Shown in pieces: positions 5,443-20,112 of a stretch of 20,112 nt of DNA. Source of the stretch: a virus; the IMG/VR virus record IMGVR_UViG_3300024433_000081, positions 1 to 20,112 of that record; one strand, given 5' to 3'. Both the position numbers and the translations under genes were made by a program. The stretch's first letter is position 1. The number at the start of each line of letters is the position of its first letter. The notes under the pieces were generated by a model. It worked only from the letters and a program-made list of their open reading frames with translations, ran no database searches and had not been told where the DNA came from.

Positions 5443-6649
5443 TGTTTATAATTACGTAGAGCCAACAGGTGTCATAATACCTGATACCGAAACAATACAA
5501 GAACAAGTCATAGAAGAATATAAAAACCTTTTTGGTCAAGATTTAATAGTCACGCCAAACACGCCGCAAGGCTTGCTTATAACCGCTGAAACCACAGCGC
5601 GTGACGCCGTCGCAGTGAATAACGCAACTCTTGCAAATCAAATAAACCCAAATTTTGCAGGCGGTATTTTCTTAGACGCAATTCTAGCACTTACCGGAAC
5701 AGAGCGCACACCGGCGACTTTTACAACTGTGACCGGAACACTTACAGGTGTGCCTGGAACTATTGTTCCCTCAGGCTCGCAAGTTAGAGAAACAACAAAT
5801 CAAGCGCTTTTTGAGTCTGTATCAGCGGTGACTATACCTACAGGCGGCACTATTGATGTTGATTTTCAGGCGGTAGACCCTGGTCCAATTGCAGTTACCC
5901 CAGGCACTCTAACAGACATAGTAAGTAATGTTATAGGCTGGCAAACAGTTGACAACGCAGCAGATCAAAATACATTGGGTACGTTAACTCAAACAGACGA
6001 TCAAGCGAAGTCTTTTAGAAAAGCAACGCTCGCAATTCAGGGCCAGGGACTAGCAGAATCTATATTGAGCGGTGTTAACGCTTTGCCGAATGTTACAAGT
6101 GCGACATTTTTAGAAAATGTTAGCAGCTCGCCGCAAGTTATCGAAAATGTAAACATGAACCCCAATAGTATGTATTTATGTGTTGATGGCGGAGTTGATC
6201 AAGCGATAGCAGAAGAATTAACAAATAAAAAAAATGGCGGGTGTGGTTATACAAATGGCGCGGCCGTGCCCGTAAGTGTTCCCGTGACCGTGCCATTTTC
6301 GGGACAAGTTATAAATGTATTGTTTGACAGACCTGACGAAGTTCCCATGCTTGTTCGCGTAACAGTTCCCGCAGATATTTTTTCTAGCTTAGTTGTGCAA
6401 ATAGTCAAAGACGCAATTTTAAATTATGCGGCTGGAAATATCCCAGGTGAGCCGGGGCTTGTCATCGGTCAAGATGTTTCATGTTTTGAATTATCAGCAG
6501 CTATTAATTATTATGATCGTACTATTTTTGTTGATGATGTTGAGATATCAGACGCGGCGCCCGTTGCATATACACGAGATACAAAATTTATAGAAGTTTT
6601 TGAGAAAGCGACAATACAAGAAAGCTCAATACAAGTGATTCCAGCATGA
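5432..6649 (+). CDS. Baseplate J-like protein (gp47/gpJ family)
   Basis: A 405-residue protein with the typical beginning of baseplate J-like proteins (IIPDTETIQEQVIEEYKNLFGQDLIVTPNTPQGLLITAE) followed by RDAVAVNNATLANQINPNFAGGIFLDAILALTGTERTPAT. A middle beta domain (TGVPGTIVPSGSQVRE) precedes the characteristic acidic turn region and a C-terminal mixed domain. The length fits the family range. The stop overlaps the next gene in ATGA (6646-6649). Function known for the family: part of the wedge that joins the baseplate hub to the peripheral plate and controls sheath triggering. There are no odd features. Confidence 0.85.
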   Translation: MADNVYNYVEPTGVIIPDTETIQEQVIEEYKNLFGQDLIVTPNTPQGLLITAETTARDAVAVNNATLANQINPNFAGGIFLDAILALTGTERTPATFTTVTGTLTGVPGTIVPSGSQVRETTNQALFESVSAVTIPTGGTIDVDFQAVDPGPIAVTPGTLTDIVSNVIGWQTVDNAADQNTLGTLTQTDDQAKSFRKATLAIQGQGLAESILSGVNALPNVTSATFLENVSSSPQVIENVNMNPNSMYLCVDGGVDQAIAEELTNKKNGGCGYTNGAAVPVSVPVTVPFSGQVINVLFDRPDEVPMLVRVTVPADIFSSLVVQIVKDAILNYAAGNIPGEPGLVIGQDVSCFELSAAINYYDRTIFVDDVEISDAAPVAYTRDTKFIEVFEKATIQESSIQVIPA

Positions 6650-8951: not shown

Positions 8952-9095
8952 ATGAAAAAAAATATAAATTTTTTGATTGATGAAGAATTAAGAACGCAAA
9001 TTAAAATCGCAGTCGCAAACAATCAAACAACAATCACAGATATTTTAATAAAAGCAATTAAAGAGTATTTAGCAAAATGCGAAAATATAGAATAG
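8952..9095 (+). CDS. Small ribbon-helix-helix (CopG/Arc-like) DNA-binding protein
   Basis: A 47-residue protein, ATG 8952 to TAG 9093-9095. The sequence reads MKKNINFLIDEELRTQIKIA, then VANNQTTITDILIKAIKEYLAK and a short end. The opening strand (INFLID), helix A (EELRTQIKIAVANNQ), a Thr-Thr-Ile-Thr turn and helix B (DILIKAIKEYLAK) have the order and spacing of ribbon-helix-helix repressors. Such proteins bind DNA as dimers through the strand. No Shine-Dalgarno site is obvious; the purine-rich stretch lies more than 40 bases upstream. A palindrome and tandem repeat upstream (8866-8883) could be its operator. The gene overlaps the next by 19 bases. It might control the switch from early to late transcription, which is speculation from its place at the late operon's end. 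Confidence 0.65.
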   Translation: MKKNINFLIDEELRTQIKIAVANNQTTITDILIKAIKEYLAKCENIE

Positions 9096-9364: not shown

Positions 9365-9556
9365 ATGAATGATAAATATGTTAAACACATAAACAAGCGC
9401 GGACGAGAAAATACATGGTGTGGTAAAAAAAACGAATCATGGAATTTATCAGATGCAGAAGAGGCCGCCAATTACGACGGCCATATTAAGTTGTGTTGGT
9501 CATGTGTAGCTGAAATTGAATATAAATTCAATCAAAATATAGACCCCGAATATTGA
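9365..9556 (+). CDS. Small Cys-containing protein, putative zinc-binding (paralogue of 16808-16987)
   Basis: A 63-residue protein. Conserved-looking points are His9, TWCGK (Cys19), SDAEEAANYDGH in the middle and LCWSCVAEI (Cys44, Cys47). The spacing (Cys-Gly turn, about 24 residues, CxxC) suggests one zinc site made by Cys19, Cys44, Cys47 and perhaps His9 or His40. The gene at 16808 encodes a 59-residue protein with the same layout: AWCGA, then KDAEAA, then ACKECIKEI. Both start with a His within the first ten residues. The start ATG follows the terminator by ten bases, so a separate promoter or readthrough is required, and no Shine-Dalgarno site is visible. It overlaps the end of a tiny - strand gene. 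Role unknown. Confidence 0.55.
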   Translation: MNDKYVKHINKRGRENTWCGKKNESWNLSDAEEAANYDGHIKLCWSCVAEIEYKFNQNIDPEY

Positions 9557-9615
9557 CATAAAATATACAGTAATTCAGCGACACAAAGTAATCCAAAAAT
9601 TAATAAATTATTCAT
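9532..9615 (-). CDS. Tiny hydrophobic peptide, 27 residues
   Basis: ATG (complement of 9613-9615) with AGGAG eight bases upstream; stop at 9532-9534. Residues 1-20 are MNNLLIFGLLCVAELLYILC, an uninterrupted hydrophobic helix with a short polar end (QYSGSIF). It is the last member of a - strand chain of four short genes and lies partly opposite the 9365 gene's end. The good ribosome site and the hydrophobic character are the only support. No family is recognised; phage-encoded micro-membrane peptides often affect lysis or the host envelope, but nothing here shows that. Confidence 0.35.
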   Translation of the reverse strand: MNNLLIFGLLCVAELLYILCQYSGSIF

Positions 9616-9619
9616 ATTG

Positions 9620-9757
9620 TTAACTCCTCACAAACATCATTTGTATTTGTTTGTTCATAGCGTTAACTGATTGCAGCGCTTCTTGATTTACTTTTATGCT
9701 ATAAGTAGTTATAAATATTATTCCGACTATTAGTGTTAGTTCTACTATCCTATCCAT
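9620..9757 (-). CDS. Small single-span membrane protein, 45 residues
   Basis: ATG at 9755-9757 (complement) with AGGGAA eight bases upstream; TAA at 9620-9622. The sequence starts MDRIVELTLIVGIIFITTYS, with one transmembrane helix at about residues 4-20, followed by a soluble helix rich in Asn, Gln and Met (VNQEALQSVNAMNKQIQMMF). The layout (short N-terminus, one helix, amphipathic tail) resembles the i-spanin type in miniature but is far too short for it. Its stop lies four bases from the next tiny gene's ATG, and its ending bases form that gene's ribosome site, so the two are probably coupled. Function unknown. Confidence 0.45.
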   Translation of the reverse strand: MDRIVELTLIVGIIFITTYSIKVNQEALQSVNAMNKQIQMMFVRS

Positions 9758-9774
9758 GTGATTAATTCCCTATG

Positions 9775-9864
9775 TTAAAAAGTATTTTTGTTTTGCCATT
9801 CCATTAATTTTTCTAAAATTTCTGGTGGTAATTCATCTATTATTTTCTGTAATTCAATATCCAT
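9775..9864 (-). CDS. Very short helical peptide gene, 29 residues
   Basis: ATG at 9862-9864 (complement), one base after the stop of the 75-residue gene, with GGGTGGG about nine bases upstream. The peptide (MDIELQKIIDELPPEILEKL and a nine-residue end) has a plausible helix-PP-helix pattern with acidic and hydrophobic residues in order, which is unlike noncoding AT-rich sequence. No family is recognised. Support comes from the tight spacing in the chain 10093-9532 and from the residue pattern only. Confidence 0.35.
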   Translation of the reverse strand: MDIELQKIIDELPPEILEKLMEWQNKNTF

Positions 9865-9865
9865 T

Positions 9866-10093
9866 TTATTTAACCCACCCATTATTTTTAAATTGTTCTA
9901 TAAGAGTGTTTTGAAAATCTTCTAATTCAGTATCAGACATTTTATAAATTGGTTTTATTGTATTTAATGATTCTCTAAGAGTTAATATTCTTATCTGATT
10001 AATACAAAAATCATCATGATGAGTTTCTATAATATTTTTTATTAGCGTTAATTTATCTATAAGTTGTTGATCAAAAATTGCTTGTAGGCTCAT
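9866..10093 (-). CDS. Hypothetical protein, 75 residues
   Basis: ATG at 10091-10093 (complement), preceded by AAGGATTAAACAC, nearly the same leader as in front of the 14504 gene. The protein is all-helical by appearance (MSLQAIFDQQLIDKLTLIKNIIETHHDDFCINQIRILTLRESLNTIKPIYKMSDTEL is the main part), acidic and without membrane segment or clear motif. A complete sigma70-type promoter lies just upstream (10132-10160). It heads a chain of four small genes, and although it lies downstream of the polymerase gene, the separate promoter suggests independent, probably early, expression. No family is recognised; small early proteins of this kind often act on host enzymes, but that is conjecture. Confidence 0.6.
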   Translation of the reverse strand: MSLQAIFDQQLIDKLTLIKNIIETHHDDFCINQIRILTLRESLNTIKPIYKMSDTELEDFQNTLIEQFKNNGWVK

Positions 10094-10131
10094 GTGTTTA
10101 ATCCTTAAAGTTTGTTTGTGTTTACATGATT

Positions 10132-10160
10132 ATAATAATATTAGTTAACGCTAGAGTCAA
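10132..10160 (-). promoter_or_regulatory. Leftward promoter P3 for the small-gene cluster
   Basis: On the - strand TTGACT (complement of 10155-10160), a 17-base spacer and TATTAT (complement of 10132-10137). The start point would be near 10125, about 30 bases before the ATG at 10093. It shares the -35 box and the TATTATTAT...CATGT downstream part with the promoter at 14663-14692, but lacks that promoter's dyad TATTG-N10-CAATA. Confidence 0.65.
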
Positions 10161-10163
10161 TAA

Positions 10164-12257
10164 CTATTTACTATATTTTTTTGCGCGCCAGCCTCCAGTA
10201 GCTTTTATTGGCCAATCTTTTGCCCATTTTGGCATTGTTGACATTATACGTTCGAATTCTTTTAATGATTTTTTGTTTTTTGGTACTTCGCATACTATTT
10301 CATCATGTATATGCAAAACGACGGGATAGCCTTTCTCTTCAAGATTTATTAGAGCGTGTGCTAATATATCACGTGCAGTAGCTTGCACTATGTTTTCTGT
10401 AAGTCGACCGCCGTATGTGTTTTTCCTAATCCAGCCTGTTTTGCCTTGGAGAGGGTTAGAGTTCCAACCCTCAAATGTAAGTTTTTTATCGTGACTTAAA
10501 ATTGGTTTATGATATTTCAACGTGCGACCGCTCAAGAGCTTGCAGTATAAAACATCATTAACACATAAAAATTTTATATCATTGTATGAGTACTCAATGT
10601 TCGGTGTGCTTACAGCATTTATTGCAGCTTGTTCTATCTCATGCCAAAATTTAACAATGTTTGGTGACTCAGAACGCCATTTTAGTATAGCTTTTTTTAT
10701 TTCTTCGTCGCTATAAAACTTATCAGCGCCAAATGCTTTCCATGCGCCAATCCAGCCCTGATAGCCTGAACTGAGTTCTGAAATTTTACCTACAGTTTTT
10801 CTAAAAGGATGATGTGTCCCGTATTCTTCTTTGTGTCTTTCAAATTCTGAAAACGGCACACCGCTAATTTTTGAGGCACTCATTTCGTATATTTTGCCAT
10901 GCGTCCTAAAAACTTCCAGACGCCATTCTTCACGTGCTAACGCTGCAAGAACGACGGCTTCAATTGCGCTATAATCTGAACACAATAAATCGTGTCCAGG
11001 CGCTGCTATAAACATACTACGCAAACAACCGCTAATTGTCGCAACGCAATCATTAAAAAATAACTCGACTAATTCTAAATTTTCGCAATTTAATATTTCT
11101 ATTGCGTTATCAATTGCTTCAGTATTCCACTCAATTTCTTGTAATTCGCTTTCTTGTGTACACCACAGACAGGCATTTAAATGCACGCCTGAATGTTTCC
11201 CGCAAGCGCTGCATTTTTTAACGGCTGGTCCTGAATTGGGCAGGTTTTGCGGTTGCGGTCCAGTGCCAGCCGCGCGCCCTGTGTGTGCGCTATGATATAT
11301 AAATAGGTCGTGCAAACGGCCATCTTTACACACGCTGTTAGACATTGAGTATAGCTTTTTAACAGCAGCACTACCTATATTTTCACGTATTTGTAATACA
11401 CGCTTAACGTGTTTTGGCAAGTCTTGTTTAAGCAATTCTGTTATATCTTGAGCGCGTAGAATATCTATTTTTAACCATTTTTTTAAGTCTGGTAATTTAC
11501 TTGCAGACTTAACAGCGCCGCAGGTTAACAACTCTAACTCTTTGTTGTATTTGTCATATGCTGTTTCGAGCAGTTTAATACATTTATTAATTAATTCTAT
11601 ATCAATACACACGCCCCGCGTATTTATAGCGTGGTCTACATGCCATAGTTTTTGTTCAATTTCTGGTAAGTCTGGAATTATTTTTGAGAGTTGCGCTTCT
11701 GCTTCAATATCACGCAAGCAGTATTCATATAAATCTTGTTCGGGTTGTGTGCGATGAGCTGGGTTATTTTTGGTAGGATTACGAGGTACACAATATTTTT
11801 TTATTAATAACTTACCCTCTTTAAATTTTTGTTTTTCTATGTTTGCAACTTCGCCGGCTTTTTCTAACGACCCGGGGTAAGAAAATGCGCGACTTTTGGC
11901 AGCCGCGCAACGTAACGACAGAGGGGGAAGGAAAGGGAATTTATATTTCGTTACTGCTATATTATTCCACACCCAAGATTCAAATGCTACATTCCACGCT
12001 TCAATTAAATTACCTTTTTCTAAATGTTCAAAGAGATCCAGGGGGTGAGAGTCGCCAGGTTTCCAGAGTTTCGCGCCATTTCCTAGATTATACGCTAAAC
12101 ATAATATCTCAGTTTCGGGATGTTCTGTATATCTTGCAGCGCCAACAACACTTAAACCTTTTTTATTAGCCCCAGGCAAGCACTCATATTTATTTGTTTT
12201 TTGGTTAAAAATATAGCCAGCGGGGCTGTATGTTTCAAAATCCATGCAAGCGATCAT
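10164..12257 (-). CDS. Family A DNA polymerase with 3'-5' exonuclease domain and a four-cysteine insertion
   Basis: A 697-residue replicative polymerase. The exonuclease domain carries MDFET (Asp6, Glu8), EAWNVAFESWVW (exo II, about 86-96) and YEYCLRD (Asp183, exo III). The polymerase domain has HTGRAAGTGPQPQNLP (about 325-340), motif A CSDYSAIE (Asp428), motif B RKTVGKISELSSGYQG (486-501) and motif C HIHDEIV (His651, Asp652, Glu653). All catalytic residues are present. Between the first block and motif A there is CSAC...CLWC (Cys349, 352, 363, 366), a likely zinc ribbon found in related phage polymerases. The start ATG has AAAGGAA a few bases upstream. An intrinsic terminator lies between this gene and the upstream SSB gene, so expression needs readthrough. 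With the PrimPol-helicase at 17463 it should form the phage replisome. Confidence 0.93.
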   Translation of the reverse strand: MIACMDFETYSPAGYIFNQKTNKYECLPGANKKGLSVVGAARYTEHPETEILCLAYNLGNGAKLWKPGDSHPLDLFEHLEKGNLIEAWNVAFESWVWNNIAVTKYKFPFLPPLSLRCAAAKSRAFSYPGSLEKAGEVANIEKQKFKEGKLLIKKYCVPRNPTKNNPAHRTQPEQDLYEYCLRDIEAEAQLSKIIPDLPEIEQKLWHVDHAINTRGVCIDIELINKCIKLLETAYDKYNKELELLTCGAVKSASKLPDLKKWLKIDILRAQDITELLKQDLPKHVKRVLQIRENIGSAAVKKLYSMSNSVCKDGRLHDLFIYHSAHTGRAAGTGPQPQNLPNSGPAVKKCSACGKHSGVHLNACLWCTQESELQEIEWNTEAIDNAIEILNCENLELVELFFNDCVATISGCLRSMFIAAPGHDLLCSDYSAIEAVVLAALAREEWRLEVFRTHGKIYEMSASKISGVPFSEFERHKEEYGTHHPFRKTVGKISELSSGYQGWIGAWKAFGADKFYSDEEIKKAILKWRSESPNIVKFWHEIEQAAINAVSTPNIEYSYNDIKFLCVNDVLYCKLLSGRTLKYHKPILSHDKKLTFEGWNSNPLQGKTGWIRKNTYGGRLTENIVQATARDILAHALINLEEKGYPVVLHIHDEIVCEVPKNKKSLKEFERIMSTMPKWAKDWPIKATGGWRAKKYSK

Positions 12258-12279
12258 GTAGTATTCCTTTTTTTAAGCG

Positions 12280-12304
12280 AAAAAAAAACCCGCCAGGTGG
12301 CGGG
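12280..12304 (-). terminator. Rho-independent terminator between SSB and polymerase genes
   Basis: On the - strand CCCGCC (12304-12299), loop ACCT, GGCGGG (12294-12289), then nine T (12288-12280). It stands 14 bases after the SSB stop and 23 bases before the polymerase ATG. There is no room for a full promoter after it. It should reduce polymerase expression relative to SSB. Confidence 0.85.
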
Positions 12305-12317
12305 CTGTATTTATAAT

Positions 12318-12956
12318 TTACACTAAGCCATATTCTTTGAGTTGCTCAGCGCTTAAAGTGTTTGATGATTTTGGGGTTTTACTAAGTCCAGCAGGCATTG
12401 GACCTTGACCAAAACCTATTGTTTTTAAGTCTATCTTAGAAGAGCTAATACGCTCGCCGTAACCTATGTGCGCAACGTGAGAGAAATTAAGGTGTACACC
12501 AGGTTTTAAGTCGCTACCATTATCTACTACAGTGCCCAAAACTTGTATATAGTCGCCGCAATTTATAGCGCCCTCAGGCAAAGTTAACGGTGCGCCTTCA
12601 GCATTAAGTAGTACTGGTGCAAAATGACTTTTAAATTTAAGTACCCAATGCCCGGCGTAACCCTCATGATCACAGGGTTTATTTCCCTCCATGTTTACTT
12701 GTGTACTATCGCCGTCGGTAAGTTTCCAAGCGAATTGGTCGTTATTATATTGACCTTTCGGGAATGATTTAGCGCCAACATTATGAATTAATTTACCCCA
12801 TGATGTTTCGTTCCAGTGCTGCTCATTTTGTTTTTCTATCGCTACGTTAAACCAAAAATACGGCTTAACCTCTACGCCCCCAAAACCTTTTGTTTCTGGC
12901 GCGTATAAACTACCCATAACTAAACGACCTACAGGGAATAATATTTGTTCTTTCAT
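12318..12956 (-). CDS. Single-strand DNA-binding protein, Enc34/DUF2815 type
   Basis: A 212-residue protein with ATG 12954-12956 (complement) behind AAGGA. The beginning (FPVGRLVMGSLYAPETKGFGGVEVKPYFWFNVAIEKQNEQHWNETSWG) and the central GNKPCDHEGYAGHWVLKFKSHFAPVLLNAEG and GDYIQVLGTVVDNGSDLKPGVHLNFSHVAHIGYGERI match the Enc34 ssDNA-binding family (formerly DUF2815), an OB-fold related in role to T7 gp2.5. The final 35 residues (LSKTPKSSNTLSAEQLKEYGLV) are Ser/Lys-rich and flexible, where SSBs usually contact partners. It has its own promoter (12998-13026) that lies over the end of the nuclease gene, and a terminator right after, consistent with need for a large amount. It should coat single strands for the polymerase and helicase. 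Confidence 0.85.
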   Translation of the reverse strand: MKEQILFPVGRLVMGSLYAPETKGFGGVEVKPYFWFNVAIEKQNEQHWNETSWGKLIHNVGAKSFPKGQYNNDQFAWKLTDGDSTQVNMEGNKPCDHEGYAGHWVLKFKSHFAPVLLNAEGAPLTLPEGAINCGDYIQVLGTVVDNGSDLKPGVHLNFSHVAHIGYGERISSSKIDLKTIGFGQGPMPAGLSKTPKSSNTLSAEQLKEYGLV

Positions 12957-12997
12957 ATGTGTATATCCTTATGGTTAAAATTATTAATAAAAATTGA

Positions 12998-13029
12998 ATA
13001 CTAATTATTATTGCTTATGATGTCAATAA
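12998..13029 (-). promoter_or_regulatory. Leftward promoter P2 with dyad operator, SSB gene
   Basis: On the - strand TTGACA (complement of 13021-13026), 17-base spacer, TAGTAT (complement of 12998-13003); start near 12991, about 35 bases before the SSB ATG. A dyad TTATTG-N10-CAATAA (13008-13029 on the + strand) overlaps the -35 box and spacer. Over 20 bases it differs at only two positions from the site at 14675-14694. A repressor or activator binding here is inferred. Confidence 0.7.
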
Positions 13030-14088
13030 GTTTTTAAGTTTTTTAAAATCAGTAGCTTTAAGTTTTATTTCGCCTTTCGGTGTTTCGCTATATTGTTCTA
13101 TAACATCACGCGGTATGCCGGCTTTAACTGCTTGCTTGGGTGTAATCAATTGATATTGTACAGATTTTTTTAAATCTATATCTAATGTTTCACCGAGTGC
13201 AATTATTTCTTCAGCTGGTTTTTTCCATCTTTCACGCGCTTTAACTTGTGACAATTCGTAAAAAGGAACACGAGCGCCATTTTTAAGTTTTGCCAGTGTT
13301 TCTTCTTCAAGCGCAGTTATTCGCATTTTTAACATTTTTGCAGCATCATGCAATATTCTTAATTCTCCGCCCAGTTGATCATCTTTTAAATCATGAGGCA
13401 TGTTATAAGCTAAACTATCAACGTGACTTAAAGCTGTTTGTTGTAAAGCTTTGCACGCGTGCTTAGCAGCGCAATATAAGCACTCAGGCGACGGTCTACA
13501 TTCTGCTTGATCTTGCATTGCTGCATTTTCAGCATCTTGCAATATTTTAAAATATTTTTCTAAGTCTTTCTTTTTAATTTCCCATGTTCTAATAGATCCC
13601 TCTTGATTAAAATCGCGCGGTTGTACTATGTGAAAAGTTATTAAATCTATATCGTGATTTTCTTCTTCATCTAATATACCCGCTGCATATTCTATAAGCT
13701 GCCAGTTTTCGAACACTTCTACAGTCTTAAAGCCATACTTAAAATCTATTACATGTAGCACGCCATCATTTACGCAATAAGCATCTACAGTTCCGAAACA
13801 TTCGGGGTGTATAACAGATATATCAATAGTTTTTTCTATTTCTAAACGACCGCCAGCAGATAATTTTTTTACATGATTTATATAAACAGCGCAATGCTCT
13901 TTCATCTCGTCGCTTATAGTGTCTTCATAGTCAACGCCAAGCAAAATTGTAGCAACGTAGTCGTGCGCTTTCGTGCCCTCACTTGCAGCACTTGAAGCTT
14001 CTCTAGGGTATTGTTTTTCTAATGCACGCGAACCAGGACATGCAACGCGGCGCGCCGCGGATGACGGCGCAAGTATTGAATGTAACAT
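13015..14088 (-). CDS. DUF2800 Cas4/AddB-like PD-(D/E)XK nuclease
   Basis: A 357-residue protein starting MLHSILAPSSAARRVACPGS, followed by EASSAASEGTKAHDYVA, the signature opening of DUF2800 phage proteins. The nuclease core is visible as FGTVDAY (Asp102), VIDFKYG (Asp115, Lys117) and ENWQLIEYAAGIL (Gln130). A cysteine set C17, C203, C206 and C212 (ECLYCAAKHACKAL) resembles the iron-sulfur cluster of Cas4 and AddB nucleases. The activity is probably 5'-3' resection of DNA ends for recombination or single-strand annealing, working beside the SSB. The gene overlaps its upstream partner (14088) by one base, suggesting coupled translation. All expected catalytic residues are present. The name by family is secure, the polarity of digestion is not known from sequence. 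Confidence 0.85.
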   Translation of the reverse strand: MLHSILAPSSAARRVACPGSRALEKQYPREASSAASEGTKAHDYVATILLGVDYEDTISDEMKEHCAVYINHVKKLSAGGRLEIEKTIDISVIHPECFGTVDAYCVNDGVLHVIDFKYGFKTVEVFENWQLIEYAAGILDEEENHDIDLITFHIVQPRDFNQEGSIRTWEIKKKDLEKYFKILQDAENAAMQDQAECRPSPECLYCAAKHACKALQQTALSHVDSLAYNMPHDLKDDQLGGELRILHDAAKMLKMRITALEEETLAKLKNGARVPFYELSQVKARERWKKPAEEIIALGETLDIDLKKSVQYQLITPKQAVKAGIPRDVIEQYSETPKGEIKLKATDFKKLKNLLTS

Positions 14089-14504
14089 TATTTCACCTCT
14101 TTTAATAAATCAGCTAATGCATTTTGTGCCGCTGGTAGTTTGTCTAATTGTGTAGATAATTCAGCAATTTTTTGTAGCCCTATTTTTTCAGAGATGTTTT
14201 TAATATCGGACGGGTTTATTTTTTGTTGCGCTATTGCATCCGTAATTTTAGACATAAAAAGAGGAAACGTTAGTATTTCTTCTGGCGCTGGTTCTGGCGC
14301 TGGTTCTGGCGCTGGTTCTGGCGCTGGTTCTGGCGCTGGTTCTGGCGCTGGTTCTGAAACAATAGGAGGCACGCAACCGCTCCAGCTTTCTTTAAATGTG
14401 CCTAGCTCATTATCATTTATTTCTGCAAGTTTTTTTAAAAAATCAGCGGTAGCTAATAAAATTTTACTGCTTGCTAATTCAATATCAGTTATTTCTATTT
14501 TCAT
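14088..14504 (-). CDS. Hypothetical protein with (EPAP) linker, 138 residues
   Basis: ATG at 14502-14504 (complement), behind AAGGATAAACAC. Residues 1-50 form a helical domain (IELASSKILLATADFLKKLAEINDNELGTFKESWSGCVPP), then about 25 residues are repeats of Glu-Pro-Ala-Pro, then a second helical domain of about 60 residues (FPLFMSKITDAIAQQKINPSDIKNISEKIGLQKIAELSTQLDKLPAAQNALADLLKEV). The linker would be a stiff extended rod joining two domains. It is encoded by six exact 12-base repeats. No family is recognised. The position at the head of the leftward replication operon and the one-base overlap with the nuclease suggest a replication or recombination accessory role, for example bridging two proteins; this is inference. 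Confidence 0.7.
   Translation of the reverse strand: MKIEITDIELASSKILLATADFLKKLAEINDNELGTFKESWSGCVPPIVSEPAPEPAPEPAPEPAPEPAPEPAPEEILTFPLFMSKITDAIAQQKINPSDIKNISEKIGLQKIAELSTQLDKLPAAQNALADLLKEVK
14284..14355. repeat. Six perfect 12-base tandem repeats inside the PAPE protein gene
   Basis: The unit GGCGCTGGTTCT (+ strand) is repeated six times without a mismatch across 72 bases. Read on the - strand in frame it gives Glu-Pro-Ala-Pro. Because the unit is a multiple of three, copy number can change without breaking the frame. Perfect identity points to recent expansion. Confidence 0.95.
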
Positions 14505-14539
14505 GTGTTTATCCTTATTTAATTAATTAATTTTTAGTT

Positions 14540-14591
14540 GCGAGCCGCCGGGCGTGTAACTTTAAGTTTGGAGACTTTCGCCCGCGCTCGC
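14540..14591. other. GC-rich imperfect inverted repeat in the leftward leader
   Basis: GCGAGCCGCCGGGCG (14540-14554) is complementary to CGCCCGCGCTCGC (14579-14591) apart from two single-base bulges, giving a 13-pair stem with a 24-base AT-rich loop. It stands out from the AT-rich surroundings. It would lie in the 5' leader of transcripts from the leftward promoter at 14663-14692, about 36 bases upstream of the 14504 ATG. No T-run follows it on either strand, so it does not look like a terminator. A structured leader, a replication origin element or a protein-binding site are all possible. Confidence 0.6.
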
Positions 14592-14649
14592 TCTAGTTGT
14601 TTTAAGCCACCGACTAGTAGGCCGTGAAAAAAGCATCAAATTTAATTAC

Positions 14650-14677
14650 TTGACACATGATAATAATAATATACTAT
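14650..14677 (+). promoter_or_regulatory. Rightward promoter for the helicase operon
   Basis: TTGACA at 14650-14655, a 16-base spacer and TACTAT at 14672-14677, with the helicase ATG 35 bases further on. The -10 box is only a partial match to consensus. It overlaps the leftward promoter and the dyad at 14674-14695, so only one polymerase can probably occupy the region at a time. Confidence 0.55.
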
Positions 14678-14695
14678 TGCTGATGAAGTCAATAG
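14663..14695 (-). promoter_or_regulatory. Leftward promoter P1 with dyad operator
   Basis: On the - strand TTGACT (complement of 14687-14692), an 18-base spacer and TATTAT (complement of 14663-14668), start near 14656. The dyad CTATTG-N10-CAATAG (14674-14695) overlaps the -35 box and spacer. The matching copy in front of the SSB gene (13009-13028) differs at two of 20 positions. It should drive the 14504 and 14088 genes. Confidence 0.7.
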
Positions 14696-14711
14696 GGAAA
14701 GGATAAAAAAA

Positions 14712-16313
14712 ATGGAATTAAGAGATTATCAGTTTAATTTAATTAGTGATGTGTGTAATGCTTGGCAAGACGGGCATAAAAATGTATGTATGCAGTTGCC
14801 AACGGGCGGTGGTAAGACCGTTATTTTTTCAAGTGTTATAGATATGCACGATGGCCGCTCAATAGTAATCGCTCATAGAGTCGAGATACTATATCAAATT
14901 AGCTTGACTCTAGCGCGTAACAATATAAGACACAATATAATAGCGCAAGATTCTACAGTACGAGAAATTGTAAAACTACACATGCAAGAATTTAATAAGC
15001 GTTTCTATGACGATGGCGCAGAATGCACGATAGCAAGTGTTGATACTCTAATAAAACTAGATGCAAGTTGGTTTGATGATATAACGCTAGTTATACAAGA
15101 TGAAGCACACCATGTTTTAAAAAATAACAAATGGGGGAAAGTTGCTAGTAAATTTAAAAACGCAAAAGGTTTATATCCTACAGCCACCCCCGTGCGCGCA
15201 GACGGCAAAGGCTTAGGCGTGCAATCAGACGGCATAATGAATTATTTATGTCAAGGGCCAAATATGCGCGAATTAATGAACCTAGGTTTTTTAACAGATT
15301 ATAAGATATACGCGCCGCCGTCGAAGCTTGATTTATCTAGCGTGCCGCTAGGCGCGACTGGTGATTACAGTAGCGCTAAACTACGCGAAGCAGTACACAA
15401 AGCTCGCTTGATGGGCGATATAGTACAGCATTATTTAAAACTAGCTAAGAATAAGCTGGGCGTAACTTTTGCGGTTGATGTACAAGCAGCTACAGATATC
15501 GCAAAAGAATTTAATGCAAACGGCGTACCCGCAGCAGTTATAAGCGCTAAAACACCCGCGTTAGATCGTGCTAATTTAATGAGAAAATTTAGAAATAGGG
15601 AAATTTTACAACTTGTAAACGTAGATATTTTAGGCGAAGGCGTAGACGTGCCGGCAATTGAAGTTGTAAGTTTTGCAAGACCGACGAAGTCTTATGCTTT
15701 ATATGCTCAGCAATTTGGAAGAGCGTTAAGACCAAGCCCAGGCAAACAACATGCTATTATAATAGACCACGCTGACAATGTAAGATTTCACGGTTTGCCC
15801 GACGCGCCGCGCGCGTGGACATTAGACAGACGCGAGAAAAAAGCAAGATCAACGCCAGGCGATGTTATGCCCGTGACTACTTGTTTTGAATGTTTTGCAG
15901 TTTATGAAGCTTATAAGTCAAGTTGCCCATTTTGTGATTATGTAGCAGTGCCAGAGTCAACAAGAAAAATAGAGCATGTTGGAGGTGACTTAGTATTATT
16001 AGATATTGACGTACTGCATCCCATTTTAAAAGAAATTGATAAGATCGCGGACGTTGTGCACATGCCGCGCGGTTTATCTATCATAGCTCAAAAATCATTA
16101 CGCAAGAAACACGAAGCGCGCAGACTAGCGCAAAGTGAATTAAAAATATCTATAGCTAATTTTATGGACGATAACGGCAACAACGCAGAAGCAAGAAAGA
16201 AATTTTATTATACTTTTGGCGTTGATATGTTAACAGCGCAAACAAAAACAGCTAGAGAAATGAGCGAGTTACAAATATTAGTTGACGAACACAGCAACAA
16301 CAAGCTATCATAA
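14712..16313 (+). CDS. SF2 DNA helicase (DEAH type) with C-terminal zinc-ribbon motif
   Basis: A 533-residue protein; ATG 14712 follows AAAGGA. The helicase core is complete: Q-like MELRDYQ start, Walker A LPTGGGKT (29-36), motif Ia SIVIAHR (51-57), DEAHH (131-135), TATPVRADG (158-166), the second domain with VNVDILGEGVDVPAIEVV (303-320) and motif VI QQFGRALRPS (334-343). After it, CFEC...CPFC (Cys392, 395, 406, 409) forms a probable zinc ribbon, then a charged helical region to the end. Phage helicases of this RadD/Hef-like shape take part in replication restart or branch migration. The VRR-NUC nuclease follows 27 bases later, and this helicase-nuclease pair is common in phage replication modules. 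The substrate cannot be told from sequence. Confidence 0.9.
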   Translation: MELRDYQFNLISDVCNAWQDGHKNVCMQLPTGGGKTVIFSSVIDMHDGRSIVIAHRVEILYQISLTLARNNIRHNIIAQDSTVREIVKLHMQEFNKRFYDDGAECTIASVDTLIKLDASWFDDITLVIQDEAHHVLKNNKWGKVASKFKNAKGLYPTATPVRADGKGLGVQSDGIMNYLCQGPNMRELMNLGFLTDYKIYAPPSKLDLSSVPLGATGDYSSAKLREAVHKARLMGDIVQHYLKLAKNKLGVTFAVDVQAATDIAKEFNANGVPAAVISAKTPALDRANLMRKFRNREILQLVNVDILGEGVDVPAIEVVSFARPTKSYALYAQQFGRALRPSPGKQHAIIIDHADNVRFHGLPDAPRAWTLDRREKKARSTPGDVMPVTTCFECFAVYEAYKSSCPFCDYVAVPESTRKIEHVGGDLVLLDIDVLHPILKEIDKIADVVHMPRGLSIIAQKSLRKKHEARRLAQSELKISIANFMDDNGNNAEARKKFYYTFGVDMLTAQTKTAREMSELQILVDEHSNNKLS

Positions 16314-16340
16314 TTGAAAGATATCAAAAAGGAATAAAAA

Positions 16341-16811
16341 ATGTTTTTTGCTGCATGGGCTAAAAAATGGAACGTTTCAAACGAAGCGATTAAAGAATTA
16401 ACTCAATCGTTTGGTTTAAGTAATTATGACTACGTAGATACTCAAGACGCAAGCGAAGCTAGTATAACAAATATTGTAAGAGTTGAAGCAAGCAAGAAAG
16501 GGTGCAGACTCTGGAGAAATAACGTAGGCGCAACAAAAACCGAAAATGGCTGGATACGGTACGGACTAGCTAACGAATCGGGCAAGATGAATAAATATAT
16601 AAAATCTGCTGATTTGATTGGTATAAGGCCGGTAATGATAACACAAGAACATATAGGCGCAACGATAGGACAGTTTATAAGCAGAGAAGTTAAAGCTGCA
16701 AACTGGACATATAAAAAAACAGAACACGAACGTGCACAACTTAGATGGATTGAATTAATAACGGGGTTGGGGGGTGACGCATGTTTTACTAACAAAGAGG
16801 GTTCACTATGA
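16341..16811 (+). CDS. VRR-NUC domain nuclease
   Basis: A 156-residue protein with AAGGAA before ATG 16341. After an N-terminal helical stretch of about 40 residues, the VRR-NUC pattern is seen: IVRVEASKKGCRLWRNNVGA (Glu49), YGLANESG, then SADLIGI (Asp91), ISREVKAANW (Glu116, Lys118) and ERAQLRWIELITGLGGDACF (Gln133). These are the PD-(D/E)XK residues, so it should be active. Family members resolve or cleave branched DNA, often beside an SF2 helicase as here. The N-terminal 40 residues are unusual, since small phage VRR-NUC proteins often begin directly at the Glu-bearing helix; this part could contact the helicase. The stop overlaps the next gene by four bases (ATGA). Confidence 0.85.
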   Translation: MFFAAWAKKWNVSNEAIKELTQSFGLSNYDYVDTQDASEASITNIVRVEASKKGCRLWRNNVGATKTENGWIRYGLANESGKMNKYIKSADLIGIRPVMITQEHIGATIGQFISREVKAANWTYKKTEHERAQLRWIELITGLGGDACFTNKEGSL

Positions 16812-16987
16812 ATCATATTAAGTACACGTGTGATGATAATAAAGCTTGGTGTGGCGCTGACTTAGATAATAGTTTTTATTTTAAAGACGCGGAAGCAGCA
16901 ACAATAAACGCAAAAATGAACGGTGAAACAAAAGCATGTAAAGAATGTATTAAAGAAATCAGGGGATATTTAAATGACGTACTTTGA
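16808..16987 (+). CDS. Small Cys-containing protein, putative zinc-binding (paralogue of 9365-9556)
   Basis: A 59-residue protein, ATG 16808 in four-base overlap with the nuclease gene. It contains His3, Cys8, AWCGAD (Cys15), then KDAEAATINAKMNGETKACKECIKEI (Cys43 and Cys46). The order and spacing (WCG, DAEAA, CxxC, then Ile/Glu-rich helix) parallel the protein at 9365, so both belong to one family with low identity, about a quarter by eye over the shared part. One zinc ion bound by Cys15, Cys43, Cys46 and Cys8 or His3 is likely. The function is unknown. Its place between the nuclease and the TetR-like gene puts it in the replication operon. Confidence 0.65.
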   Translation: MNHIKYTCDDNKAWCGADLDNSFYFKDAEAATINAKMNGETKACKECIKEIRGYLNDVL

Positions 16988-17120
16988 AAATTTGCAAGTT
17001 GGGTATTTTAGATTAGAAAAAGGAGGCGTGAATATATCTATGTATTCACAACCTTCTAGATTACAAATATTTTTTTGGGGATTATTAGGTTTTAAATATA
17101 TACAAAATGATGAGGATTAA
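16974..17120 (+). CDS. Hypothetical protein, 48 residues
   Basis: ATG 16974 overlaps the end of the previous gene by 14 bases, with AGGGGA about eight bases upstream; TAA at 17118-17120. The sequence (MTYFENLQVGYFRLEKGGVN, then ISMYSQPSRLQIFFWGLLGFKY) is aromatic and partly hydrophobic without a full transmembrane helix. It resembles the aromatic FFGFW segment of the 73-residue protein at 9077 only in composition. Its tight overlap, clear Shine-Dalgarno site and placement six bases before the next gene support it as real. No function can be given. Confidence 0.5.
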   Translation: MTYFENLQVGYFRLEKGGVNISMYSQPSRLQIFFWGLLGFKYIQNDED

Positions 17121-17126
17121 TTAAAA

Positions 17127-17432
17127 ATGAGATTAAGAAAAAAACCAGAGGAAAGAAAAAAAGAATTATTGCAAAACGCTATAGAACTATCGATTGAACA
17201 CGGCTATATTTACATAACGCGCGAGATGTTAGCTAATTATAGCGACGTGTCGGAAGCGTTAATAAATAACTATTTTGGCACTATTGACAATTTAAAATCA
17301 GAAATTGTTTTAGAAGCAATTAAGGAGGAAATACCACAAATTATTTTACAAGCTTTAGTTTTAAACGACCCTCTAGCGGCAAGGATTACGCCAAAAATTA
17401 GAAAAAAAGCGGCGCGGTACTTGTCAAAATAA
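17127..17432 (+). CDS. Minimal TetR-like HTH protein, 101 residues
   Basis: The N-terminus, residues 3-55 (RKKPEERKKELLQNAIELSIEHGYIYITREMLANYSDVSEALINNYFGTIDNLKSEIV), has the signature order of TetR DNA-binding domains: a helix, GYIYITREMLA (helix 2-3), then VSEALINNYFG as recognition helix and a closing helix. The usual ligand-binding domain of 120-150 residues is absent; only a short helical tail with basic ending (KIRKKAARYLSK) follows. Comparable short TetR-like proteins occur in other phages. It is the best candidate to bind the dyad sites at 13008-13029 and 14674-14695, since TetR proteins use palindromes. It lies in the middle of the operon that the upstream dyad would control, so negative feedback is plausible. 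This is an inference. Confidence 0.7.
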   Translation: MRLRKKPEERKKELLQNAIELSIEHGYIYITREMLANYSDVSEALINNYFGTIDNLKSEIVLEAIKEEIPQIILQALVLNDPLAARITPKIRKKAARYLSK

Positions 17433-17462
17433 AATATTTTTGACAGCAAGGATTCAAAACTT

Positions 17463-19745
17463 ATGGATAAATTACCACAGGCTTTCTGTACTCTAAATTC
17501 CTATAAACAGTTCATTGTTTATAAGATATCAGGAGACAGCAAAAAGAAAATTAAACAACCCGCAAATTATAAGACGGGTGCTATAGAAAATGCGCATGAT
17601 GCGCAAATATGGACAGATTCAGAAACAGCAATACAAGCAGCTAAAACACTAGGCGAAAATTACGGGGTCGGTTTCGTGCTTACAGATAACGACCCATTTT
17701 TTTTACTAGATATTGATAGTTGTATTAATGATGGCGTTATGAGCACTACAGCACAAGCACTATTAGCTATGTTAGACGGTGCAGCGGTTGAAACATCAAC
17801 ATCAAGAAACGGCTTGCATATTCTTGGCAGCACTAGACCGCTTCAACATACGTGCAGAAACTTAGAGCACAGCTTAGAGCTATATACTACTAAAAGGTTT
17901 ATAGCTCTAACTGGAATTGATGCAAGAGGCGATATTGGGAAAGACTGTACAGATGCGCTTGATATGGTTATTGAGTGTTATTTTGATAGACCCGTTACAG
18001 AAACAGTAAGTAATCACACAGTGCAAGAAAGCAGTTTAGAAGATGACGAGGTTATACAAAAAGCGTTAAGCTCAAAGTCTGCAAAAGCTAAGTTTGGGCA
18101 TGAGGTCGCAACATTTAAAGACTTGTTCGAAGCTAACGAAGATGTATTAAGTAAAGTATATCCCGCCGACACTAACAGCACTTCAGCATATAACGCAAGT
18201 AGCGCAGATATGGCGCTTGCTATGCACTTAGTGTTTTGGTGTGGGGGCGATCAAGATCAGATATTGCGCTTAATGTGTCGTTCTGCGCTTGCCCGCGAAA
18301 AATGGAATCGGAGCGAGTATTTACTAAATACTATTACGCGAGCAATGCAAAAAAACACAAACAATTACGCAGAAACTAAAGATAAAGTAAAAGACTCAGA
18401 AAGTCAACAGCCAGGCACTTATATATCAATTGAAGAACAGCGTGTATTGTTTGCTAATGATGTTTACGTATTAAATGATCATTCAATATTTAGACATGAA
18501 GCTGGTAAAGTGATGGATAAAGCAAGATATGATAGTTGGCTTGGAGGACACTATTATAGAATTGATGACGATAACGCGAAGACGGTTAGGAGCGCGTTCG
18601 ATGCTTTAACAAGATCAGCTTATTTAAATGTGCCAAAAGTTGACGACACTATGTTTATGCCAGCTTTACCTAGCGGTGATATTATCACAATAGAGGGTCG
18701 TAAGTTTGTTAATGTGTACGCGCCGCTTGATATCAAACGTAAAGCGGGAGATATCAAGCCGTTTTTAAATCATCTTAAGTTGTTGTGGCCAGATCCAGAA
18801 GACCAAAAAATTGCGTTAAGTTATCTTGCATCATTAGTTCAGTATCAGGGCTACAAGTTTCCGTGGTGTATCGTGATTCAGGGGACGCAAGGCAACGGTA
18901 AAAGTTTTATAGGTAATTGTTTAGAAAAAGCGATAGGCGAAATCTACACGCAAAAGCCTAACGCCGGTCAACTTACGAATAAATTTAACGATTGGCTTGA
19001 TAATTCCATACTTGCAATAGTTGAAGACTTCCATACGAGCAGCAAAGATAAATTTGAAGTTATGGAGCTTATGAAACCTCTTGTTACTGAAATCAGACAA
19101 GCGATTGAGGGCAAAGGTAAAAAGAAATTAACTAAAACTATATGTACTAACTTTATATTCACGACTAATAACGCAGACGCATTACAAAAACATAAAGACG
19201 ATAGGCGCTTTTGTATGTTGTTTACAGCTCAGCAATCAGTCGAAGACTTGCAGCGCGACGGCATGGGAGACAAATATTTTGTTGATTTGCATGATTGGGC
19301 GCACAATAAAGACGGTTTCGCGATAATAACAGATTATTTATTCAATTATGATATACCGCGTGAATATAATCCGATGTATTGTACCCGCGCGCCGAAAACA
19401 TCTACTACAGACGAAGCAATATATAAATCACTTGGCAACGTAGAGCACGCGATAATTGAAGCTACAGAAGAATACAGAATAGGTTTTAGGAATGACTGGA
19501 TTAATACGCTAGCTTTAAGAGATTACTTAAAAGACATGGGGCTTAAGTTAGCTGATAAAAAGTTTCCGGAAACTCTTGAGCGAATCGGGTATATAAAACA
19601 TCCAGGGCTTAACGACGGTAGATGTTATGCCCCGTTGCCGGGCACAACCTGCAAGCCAAGGCTTTATATTCACAAAGGCAGCGATAAAAGCAAGCTAACA
19701 GATCAAAAGGAAATAATAGATATTTATCTAGAAGACCAGAAGTAA
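17463..19745 (+). CDS. NrS-1-like primase-polymerase fused to SF3-type helicase
   Basis: A 760-residue protein with AAGGA ten bases before ATG 17463. Residues 1-170 form the PrimPol domain: IWTDSETAIQAA, GVGFVLTDNDPFFLLDIDSC (Asp83 and Asp85), TSTSRNGLHI (His119) and ELYTTKRFIALTG (Glu139, Arg145). A helical bundle (about 245-295, ALAMHLVFWCGGDQDQILRLMCRSALAREKWNR) links it to the helicase: Walker A GTQGNGKS (474-481), Walker B SILAIVEDF (515-523), FIFTTNNADA (564-573, sensor) and DDRRFCMLF (arginine finger near 581-582). This order is that of the NrS-1 phage polymerase and DUF5906 proteins, which can prime with dNTPs and extend. It ends the rightward operon. With the family A polymerase, it gives the phage two DNA-synthesis activities. 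Confidence 0.88.
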   Translation: MDKLPQAFCTLNSYKQFIVYKISGDSKKKIKQPANYKTGAIENAHDAQIWTDSETAIQAAKTLGENYGVGFVLTDNDPFFLLDIDSCINDGVMSTTAQALLAMLDGAAVETSTSRNGLHILGSTRPLQHTCRNLEHSLELYTTKRFIALTGIDARGDIGKDCTDALDMVIECYFDRPVTETVSNHTVQESSLEDDEVIQKALSSKSAKAKFGHEVATFKDLFEANEDVLSKVYPADTNSTSAYNASSADMALAMHLVFWCGGDQDQILRLMCRSALAREKWNRSEYLLNTITRAMQKNTNNYAETKDKVKDSESQQPGTYISIEEQRVLFANDVYVLNDHSIFRHEAGKVMDKARYDSWLGGHYYRIDDDNAKTVRSAFDALTRSAYLNVPKVDDTMFMPALPSGDIITIEGRKFVNVYAPLDIKRKAGDIKPFLNHLKLLWPDPEDQKIALSYLASLVQYQGYKFPWCIVIQGTQGNGKSFIGNCLEKAIGEIYTQKPNAGQLTNKFNDWLDNSILAIVEDFHTSSKDKFEVMELMKPLVTEIRQAIEGKGKKKLTKTICTNFIFTTNNADALQKHKDDRRFCMLFTAQQSVEDLQRDGMGDKYFVDLHDWAHNKDGFAIITDYLFNYDIPREYNPMYCTRAPKTSTTDEAIYKSLGNVEHAIIEATEEYRIGFRNDWINTLALRDYLKDMGLKLADKKFPETLERIGYIKHPGLNDGRCYAPLPGTTCKPRLYIHKGSDKSKLTDQKEIIDIYLEDQK

Positions 19746-19770: not shown

Positions 19771-19791
19771 AATATAGGAAAAGATTAAGAG

Positions 19792-20112
19792 TTATTCCAT
19801 ATAATTCTCCGCGCGGAAATCGCCATGGCCAGTGCCATCGTCATCGTTATAGCCATAGCCATAGCCAGCGCCAGAGCCAGCGCCATAGCCCGCGCCAAAG
19901 CCAAAGCCATCGCCAGAGCCATCGCCATAGCCATAGCCAGAGCCATCGTCAAAGCCATCGCCACAGCCATAGCCAGAGCCAGAGCCATCGTCAAAGCCAT
20001 CGCCATAGCCATAGCCATCGCCATCGCCATCGCCATCGCCATAGCCATCGCCAGAGCCATCGTCAAAGCCATCGCCACAGCCATAGCCAGAGCCAGAGCC
20101 AGAGCCATTTTT
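19792..20112 (-). CDS. C-terminal part of a leftward gene with a (Gly-X)n repeat tail (5' end outside window)
   Basis: The - strand frame open from the window end to TAA at 19792-19794 gives 106 residues: after Lys-Asn it is Gly-X repeats (GSGSGSGYGCGDGFDDGSG and so on) with X limited to Ser, Tyr, Asp, Cys, Phe and Ala, and it ends NDDDGTGHGDFRAENYME. The Gly codon is almost always GGC and X codons vary in the second base. Gly-X tails of this type end many small phage and prophage proteins. The other - strand reading (Ala-Leu/Ala-Met repeats) is open too but is less likely a protein. Two + strand frames are also open because the tract is hexanucleotide-repetitive. The N-terminal domain, needed to name it, lies beyond the window. 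Confidence 0.5.
   Translation of the reverse strand, partial: KNGSGSGSGYGCGDGFDDGSGDGYGDGDGDGDGYGYGDGFDDGSGSGYGCGDGFDDGSGYGYGDGSGDGFGFGAGYGAGSGAGYGYGYNDDDGTGHGDFRAENYME
19824..20106. repeat. Hexanucleotide-type tandem repeat tract
   Basis: The + strand reads as GCCATA, GCCAGA, GCCATC and related six-base units for about 280 bases. A 50-base block is duplicated exactly (19937-19986 and 20051-20100, 114 bases apart), and CATCGTCAAAGCCATCG occurs three times. Copy differences other than these are single-base changes in one position of the unit. This pattern points to expansion by slippage or unequal recombination. Confidence 0.9.

Follow-up and report, generated by a model that had tools for sequence, protein, structure and literature searches.

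The replication genes of the phage fragment analysed here are preceded by a recurring operator-promoter module, a 20-bp dyad with the -35 box of a promoter inside it, which is conserved in sequence and in position across phages, takes part in a pair of promoters that face each other between the helicase and exonuclease genes, and occurs together with a gene for a small protein with the predicted fold of a TetR-type regulator, here called the mini-TetR. To judge from the sequences compared, these sites are most likely the operators of that protein (17127-17432), which would act as a phage-encoded, autoregulated repressor of early genes without a ligand-binding domain. The fragment, hereafter the window, is linear, makes up a whole IMG/VR record (20,112 bp) and carries contractile-tail genes of the E217 type. 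Its replication block is divergent, with a 138-aa ORF, exonuclease, single-stranded DNA binding protein (SSB) and polymerase running leftward, and a superfamily 2 helicase, nuclease-like gene, 59-aa ORF, mini-TetR and primase/helicase running rightward. No integrase or immunity gene was identified within the window, a near-identity search among phage records gave no match to it, scans of viral contigs with the exonuclease or the polymerase as single proteins returned no relatives, and an Rfam search of the window was without matches. The genes concerned are the following.

9866-10093, - strand: 75-aa ORF, under operator C
10164-12257, - strand: family A DNA polymerase
12318-12956, - strand: gp2.5-like SSB
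13015-14088, - strand: DUF2800 / PD-(D/E)XK exonuclease
14088-14504, - strand: 138-aa ORF that opens the leftward operon and contains an (E-P-A-P)n stretch
14712-16313, + strand: superfamily 2 (DEAD/ResIII) helicase
16341-16811, + strand: nuclease-like gene (phrog_93, endonuclease)
16808-16987: 59-aa protein (p59), next to the nuclease gene and conserved likewise in the relative L007
17127-17432, + strand: mini-TetR, proposed repressor, 101 aa, PHROG 8723, third gene after the helicase
17463-19745, + strand: DNA primase/helicase (DUF5906, NrS-1 polymerase-like HBD)

In total the window holds four operator-promoters (A-D), to which a fifth promoter, facing that of operator A, has to be added.

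Operator A, TATTGACTTCATCAGCAATA, 14675-14694, - strand: covers the leftward -35 box and overlaps the rightward -10 box and presumed start
Operator B, TATTGACATCATAAGCAATA, 13009-13028, - strand: inside the exonuclease gene at its 3' end, ahead of the SSB gene
Operator C, TATTGACTCTAGCGTTAACT, 10143-10162, - strand: resembles the family core more closely than any other site of the window
Operator D, AGTTGACGAACACAGCAACA, 16280-16299, + strand: inside the helicase gene at its 3' end, ahead of the nuclease gene
Leftward promoter, TTGACT-18-TATTAT, 14663-14692, - strand: serves the 14504-14088 ORF and exonuclease genes
Rightward (helicase) promoter, TTGACA-16-TACTAT, 14650-14677, + strand: faces the leftward promoter
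SSB-polymerase promoter, TTGACA-17-TAGTAT, 12998-13026, - strand
Promoter of the 75-aa ORF (10093-9866), TTGACT-17-TATTAT, 10132-10160, - strand
Promoter before the nuclease-like gene, TTGACG-18-TATCAT, 16282-16311, + strand

Operators A and B are the two sites on which the original prediction was built, and their sequences, coordinates, strands, match at 18 of 20 positions and TATTG-N10-CAATA symmetry were all re-verified, as was the overlap of both with sigma-70 -35 boxes; the additional contact of A with the rightward -10 box (TACTAT, 14672-14677, after a 16-bp spacer) amounts to 3 shared bases. That inventory was nevertheless incomplete, operator D having been missed. The promoter at 10132-10160, which had been taken as a third promoter free of the dyad, and so of the common control, turns out to hold operator C, which contains the only exact TTGAC-N6-GTYAA of the window (TTGACTCTAGCGTTAA; 0.07 expected) and has one mismatch to the family consensus. 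Since this is the best-conserved core in the window, the promoter should not escape control, and the claim that it does is not supported; the promoter also aligns with the leftward one over about 40 bp, through the -10 region. The dyads of the window operators are imperfect (5 of 8 pairs), their right half-sites (AGCAATA) are degenerate, and the region directly upstream of the window's TetR gene has no TTGAC site. The proposal of one operator type common to the polymerase-side, SSB and helicase operons holds, across phages as well as in the window, and has to be completed by the regulator gene itself, which as the third gene after the helicase lies within the controlled helicase operon.

Statistics confined to the window were judged insufficient, because a match at 18 of 20 positions is not in itself rare in 20 kb and several other such pairs occur outside tandem repeats. 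The expectation for the site pattern in the window is 0.01, a value that is partly circular since the pattern derives from the sites themselves, and the pattern TTGACN6AGCAAYA, also drawn from the sites, has three exact copies in the window (the third at 16282-16299) against 0.00 expected from shuffles. Seven promoter matches at 10 of 12 consensus positions were found in 9500-17600, five of them from the module, at 10160(-), 13026(-), 14692(-), 14650(+) and 16282(+).

An independent test was provided by some 150 IMG/VR loci (80 helicase loci and 79 further SSB loci, with some contigs occurring in both sets), which were fetched by protein similarity alone, with promoters ignored. The consensus had been set on the window, Scuro, L007 and L003 before these loci were retrieved; consensus and anchor were thus fixed after the window and Scuro had been seen, and the helicase and SSB loci took no part in defining them. 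In the spacing spectrum of TTGAC-Nx-GTCAA, N6 is represented by 104 distinct contexts and each other spacing from 0 to 20 by 0-5, which rules out a chance repeat as the explanation, and TTGAC as anchor gave 134 operator-promoters as compared with 0-6 for nine other 5-mers. Dyads of at least 6 pairs precede the helicase gene in 27 of 75 loci, compared with 4 of 375 control windows, and 13 of 75 loci have one at the helicase 3' end (none in the controls). Such a dyad precedes the SSB gene in 23 of 68 loci (controls 0-1), always on the SSB strand and with the -10 box mostly 17 bp from the -35 box, and the TetR gene in 21 of 63 (controls 0-3); a -10 box at 17 bp is also usual for the TTGAC-N6-GTCAA sites as a whole. 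This recurrence at the same genes, in relatives chosen blind to promoters, also sets the module above chance. It might still be argued that nothing more than duplication of strong sigma-70 promoters inside the genome lies behind the sites and that their symmetry is accidental, as the window dyads are imperfect and several 18/20 repeats arise by chance or as repeats. This is extremely improbable, for the right half-site GTCAA, which has no promoter role, is conserved at exactly N6, and promoters without a dyad would not show it. In four of the loci (L059, L081, L087 and L095) the single gap upstream of the helicase contains a number of operators of 20 bp, or operators that lie 40-70 bp from each other, an arrangement that suggests cooperative binding or an iteron-like array.

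The original prediction had also proposed a scan of relatives, and further conserved copies were found at the same genes in Scuro, L007, JD001, PEAT2 and the IMG/VR loci. The polymerases nearest to that of the window belong to several phages, among them Scuro of Acinetobacter and SppYZU01 of Shewanella, in which the divergent arrangement of genes is preserved and a TetR_N gene is part of the helicase operon. TATTGACAN4TGTCAATA is matched six times in Scuro, where 0.18 would be expected: in the gap, at the exonuclease 3' end before the SSB gene, before the TetR gene and at other short operons. Exact TTGAC-N6-GTCAA sites number seven in Jedunavirus JD001 (0.02 expected) and nine in Peatvirus PEAT2 (0.13 expected), mostly in promoters, and several of those in JD001 precede small genes oriented opposite to the structural genes. 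The closest relative of the window, contig IMGVR 3300035691 (helicase 59% and TetR 53% identical), has exactly three exact cores in 48 kb, in the gap, before the SSB gene and at the helicase 3' end. The position of operator A is kept in L007 (2572), Scuro (26263) and JD001 (33474), that of operator B in L007 (5919), Scuro (28348), SppYZU01 (32533) and JD001 (35803) and in about half of the 68 SSB loci, and that of operator D in L007, L003, L004, JD001 and PEAT2, while an operator lies in the TetR gene's own promoter in Scuro (21957), JD001 (29913) and SppYZU01 (38000).

The TTGAC dyad is absent from five phages with a member of the mini-TetR family, R9Y1, AeroV_348, PD0307, VP16T and 1.009; a different repeated operator is carried by Psp6, VP16T and 1.009, as is expected if operator and recognition helix drift together. 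In Psp6 (L024) this is a palindrome, AATCRTAAWTTAYGATT, with six matches (0.04 expected) at 5549, 5605, 10962, 13272, 16405 and 30780, including the divergent gap, the helicase 3' end and a place just after the TetR gene. In VP16T (L026) and Vibrio 1.009 (L013) it is TTAGATTAGCATTAGAT, at 31745, 37735 and 40910 in the former and at 5915 in the latter, located at the divergent gap and the TetR promoter and overlapping the -10 region.

The candidate regulator belongs to PHROG 8723, a family listed as "unknown function", whose HMM matches 30 of 30 scanned members and the window protein with an E value of 2e-19. A TetR_N helix-turn-helix is indicated by profile, Pfam and structural model alike: the mini-TetR profile matches TetR regulators of the PDB (best E 1e-10), Pfam TetR_N is found in 20 of 30 members, with the window protein alone at E 0.0013, below the curated cut-off, and the AlphaFold2 model of the window protein (pLDDT 92.5) has seven helices and aligns over 97 of its 101 residues with DNA-bound Vibrio LuxR (Z 10.1, rmsd 1.9), its alignments to TetR/LuxR structures reaching Z of about 10. 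The C-terminal ligand-binding and dimerisation domain of full-length TetR proteins (about 120-150 residues) is missing, the protein ending about 35 residues past the DNA-binding domain. The model thus portrays a protein that would work like TetR without being a typical full-length member, hence the name mini-TetR. Of 80 helicase loci, 70 have its gene downstream of the helicase, and operator-promoters occur in 46 of 57 full-context loci with the TetR gene as against 0 of 3 without it. The 21 of 63 IMG/VR loci with an operator in the TetR gene's own promoter are those in which autoregulation is direct; in the window it would run only via the promoters of the helicase operon. A CTTGAC-type operator flank accompanies a distinct PPxLITYH-type recognition helix, whose bearers form one clade, and operator specificity follows helix 3 modestly when helicase distance is allowed for (partial Mantel r 0.21, p about 0.003), a correlation that is partly phylogenetic. 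A plasmid search found no mini-TetR. The TetR proteins of Scuro (L014 21424-21924) and SppYZU01 (L015 38065-38565) have 166 aa, and their added N-terminal half looks like a second, degenerate helix-turn-helix, as if two mini-TetRs had been fused.

Of the two regulators named in the original prediction, a TetR-like and a ribbon-helix-helix (RHH) protein, the TetR-like one is strongly favoured. That the dyad serves another phage regulator, either the RHH protein (8952-9095) or p59, and that the mini-TetR acts elsewhere, is quite unlikely: the window does contain a 47-aa RHH-like ORF, and p59 is conserved in L007, but an unsystematic look across phages found no co-occurrence of either with the operators, whereas the mini-TetR co-occurs with them and often has one in its own promoter. 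TetR dimers fit 20-bp palindromes with an 8-bp inner spacing, and the sites have just these dimensions. The RHH-like ORF (MKKNINFLIDEELRTQIKIAVANNQTTITDILIKAIKEYLAK...) is itself preceded by a near-palindrome, ATGATATAATGATATCAT, perhaps its own operator.

A host protein might also be the binder, for instance a quorum regulator of the LuxR/HapR/SmcR type, through which the phage would listen to its host. The consensus of these Vibrio regulators has the frame TATTGA-N8-TCAATA, in which the half-site is TATTGA and the inner spacing, like that of the phage operator, 8 bp, and this frame occurs 29 times in the loci as compared with 0-2 at other spacings. The helix-turn-helix of the mini-TetR also resembles theirs; they are its closest DNA-bound structural matches (7amt, 7amn), and they are among its profile matches, although not the best ones. 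The phage operator differs, however, in having C/G (TTGAC..GTCAA) where their consensus has T/A, and the regulators themselves in being full-length host proteins of about 200 aa that both activate and repress. The operator is found again in phages that infect Acinetobacter, Klebsiella, Pectobacterium or Shewanella, which are not known to have a regulator of this type in common, and the phages supply a TetR gene of their own that often has this operator in front of it, so that control by the host is very unlikely. The dual action of Vibrio LuxR could further suggest that the mini-TetR brings polymerase to these promoters, as an activator or as a regulator with both effects. This too is unlikely, as the -35 hexamer lies in a fixed frame inside the site, where a bound dimer would block the contact with sigma, and the operator promoters look strong unaided, with 10 of 12 consensus positions matched.

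In the gap between the helicase and exonuclease genes the outer TTGAC..GTCAA span, from the -35 box of one predicted promoter to that of the other, extends in the window from 14650 to 14692, or 43 bp, and the regions from -35 to -10 overlap, as in a face-to-face phage promoter pair. The span is exactly 43 bp in the window, L007 and Scuro, with a distance of 61-64 bp to the helicase start, and across the loci inward spans in this gap are concentrated at 40-44 bp, with 32 pairs there as against 1 in 375 control windows. The better dyad is on the exonuclease-side promoter in 29 of 36 facing pairs. Two polymerases cannot use 43 bp of DNA at once, and this geometry, conserved across phages, supports the proposal that the leftward and rightward promoters exclude each other.

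A mechanism may be outlined in which the identity of the binder, repression as the sign of its action and the timing are inferred from sequence. A mini-TetR dimer would bind the 20-bp palindrome TRTTGAC-N6-GTYAAYA, whose left half-site takes in the -35 hexamer TTGACN of each early promoter, and therefore bound repressor and RNA polymerase could not share a promoter; with the -35 box in the same frame of the operators everywhere, the simplest interpretation is repression by steric hindrance. A single dimer on 14675-14694 would block both replication promoters, the leftward one at its -35 box and the rightward one at its -10 box and start. Early expression of the helicase operon would raise the level of the repressor, which, once accumulated, would silence the operon it comes from along with the remaining replication operons. 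Early genes would in this way be shut off by negative feedback with a delay, as follows from the place of the repressor gene inside the operon it controls, and replication-gene expression would first be limited and then ended. Polymerase occlusion may act in addition between the two facing promoters.

Both elements of this scheme are of known kinds. TetR-family autorepressors (TetR/tetO, AcrR, QacR) have the same TetR_N helix-turn-helix, a promoter palindrome that often lies between divergent genes, and autoregulation; the mini-TetR differs in being phage-encoded, in being only about 100 aa long and lacking the greater part of the ligand-binding domain, in having several operators per phage genome, each with a -35 box in the same frame, and in its early phage targets. 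Facing phage promoters with expected interference and repressor sites in the overlap are those of P2 (Pe/Pc) and 186 (pR/pL), which are lysis-lysogeny switches, whereas the pair in the window drives replication genes in both directions. No description of a regulon of ligand-domain-less TetR proteins with operators embedding the -35 box was found for phages in the open-licence literature, so that the control system, common to many bacterial viruses, has apparently not been described before. The "TetR family transcriptional regulator" of PD0307 and Jedunavirus belongs to the same family as the mini-TetR, PHROG 8723, and in PD0307 it was published as an auxiliary metabolic and antibiotic-resistance gene, with no operator reported there (PMC10132091). 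The present results suggest a core family of phage regulators instead.

On a wider scale, we lean slightly towards the view that PHROG 8723 consists of ligand-free mini-TetR master repressors that time early shut-off through a -35-centred operator in a large, taxonomically mixed group of phages, Klebsiella Jedunavirus included, with operators drifting between lineages (TTGAC-N6-GTCAA, AATCRTAAWTTAYGATT in Psp6, TTAGATTAGCATTAGAT in VP16T) and the facing-promoter pair serving as a direction switch. With the repressor role proposed here, a widespread phage protein family would acquire a function together with a target open to testing, and early regulons could be predicted straight from sequence in many phages, Klebsiella phages among them. 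The repressor inside its own replication operon would form, with the facing promoters, a simple timing circuit independent of the host.

Three further features of the window were observed. A GC-rich inverted repeat (14540-14600, GCGAGC..CGGGCG / CGCCCG..GCTCGC) interrupts the AT-rich leader that runs from the facing promoters to the 138-aa ORF, and may represent an origin, an attenuator or a terminator. Control by a leader RNA was considered and set aside; the hairpin has a folding z of -1.5 on the leftward transcript and of -2.6 on the + strand, where it folds better than shuffles. Inside the 138-aa ORF a 12-bp tandem repeat, GGTTCTGGCGCT, at 14275-14355 encodes (P-A-P-E)n. The end of the record (19785-20112) is a long run of six-base GCCATN-like repeats with Met/Ala-rich frames open on both strands, possibly a repeat array or an assembly end.
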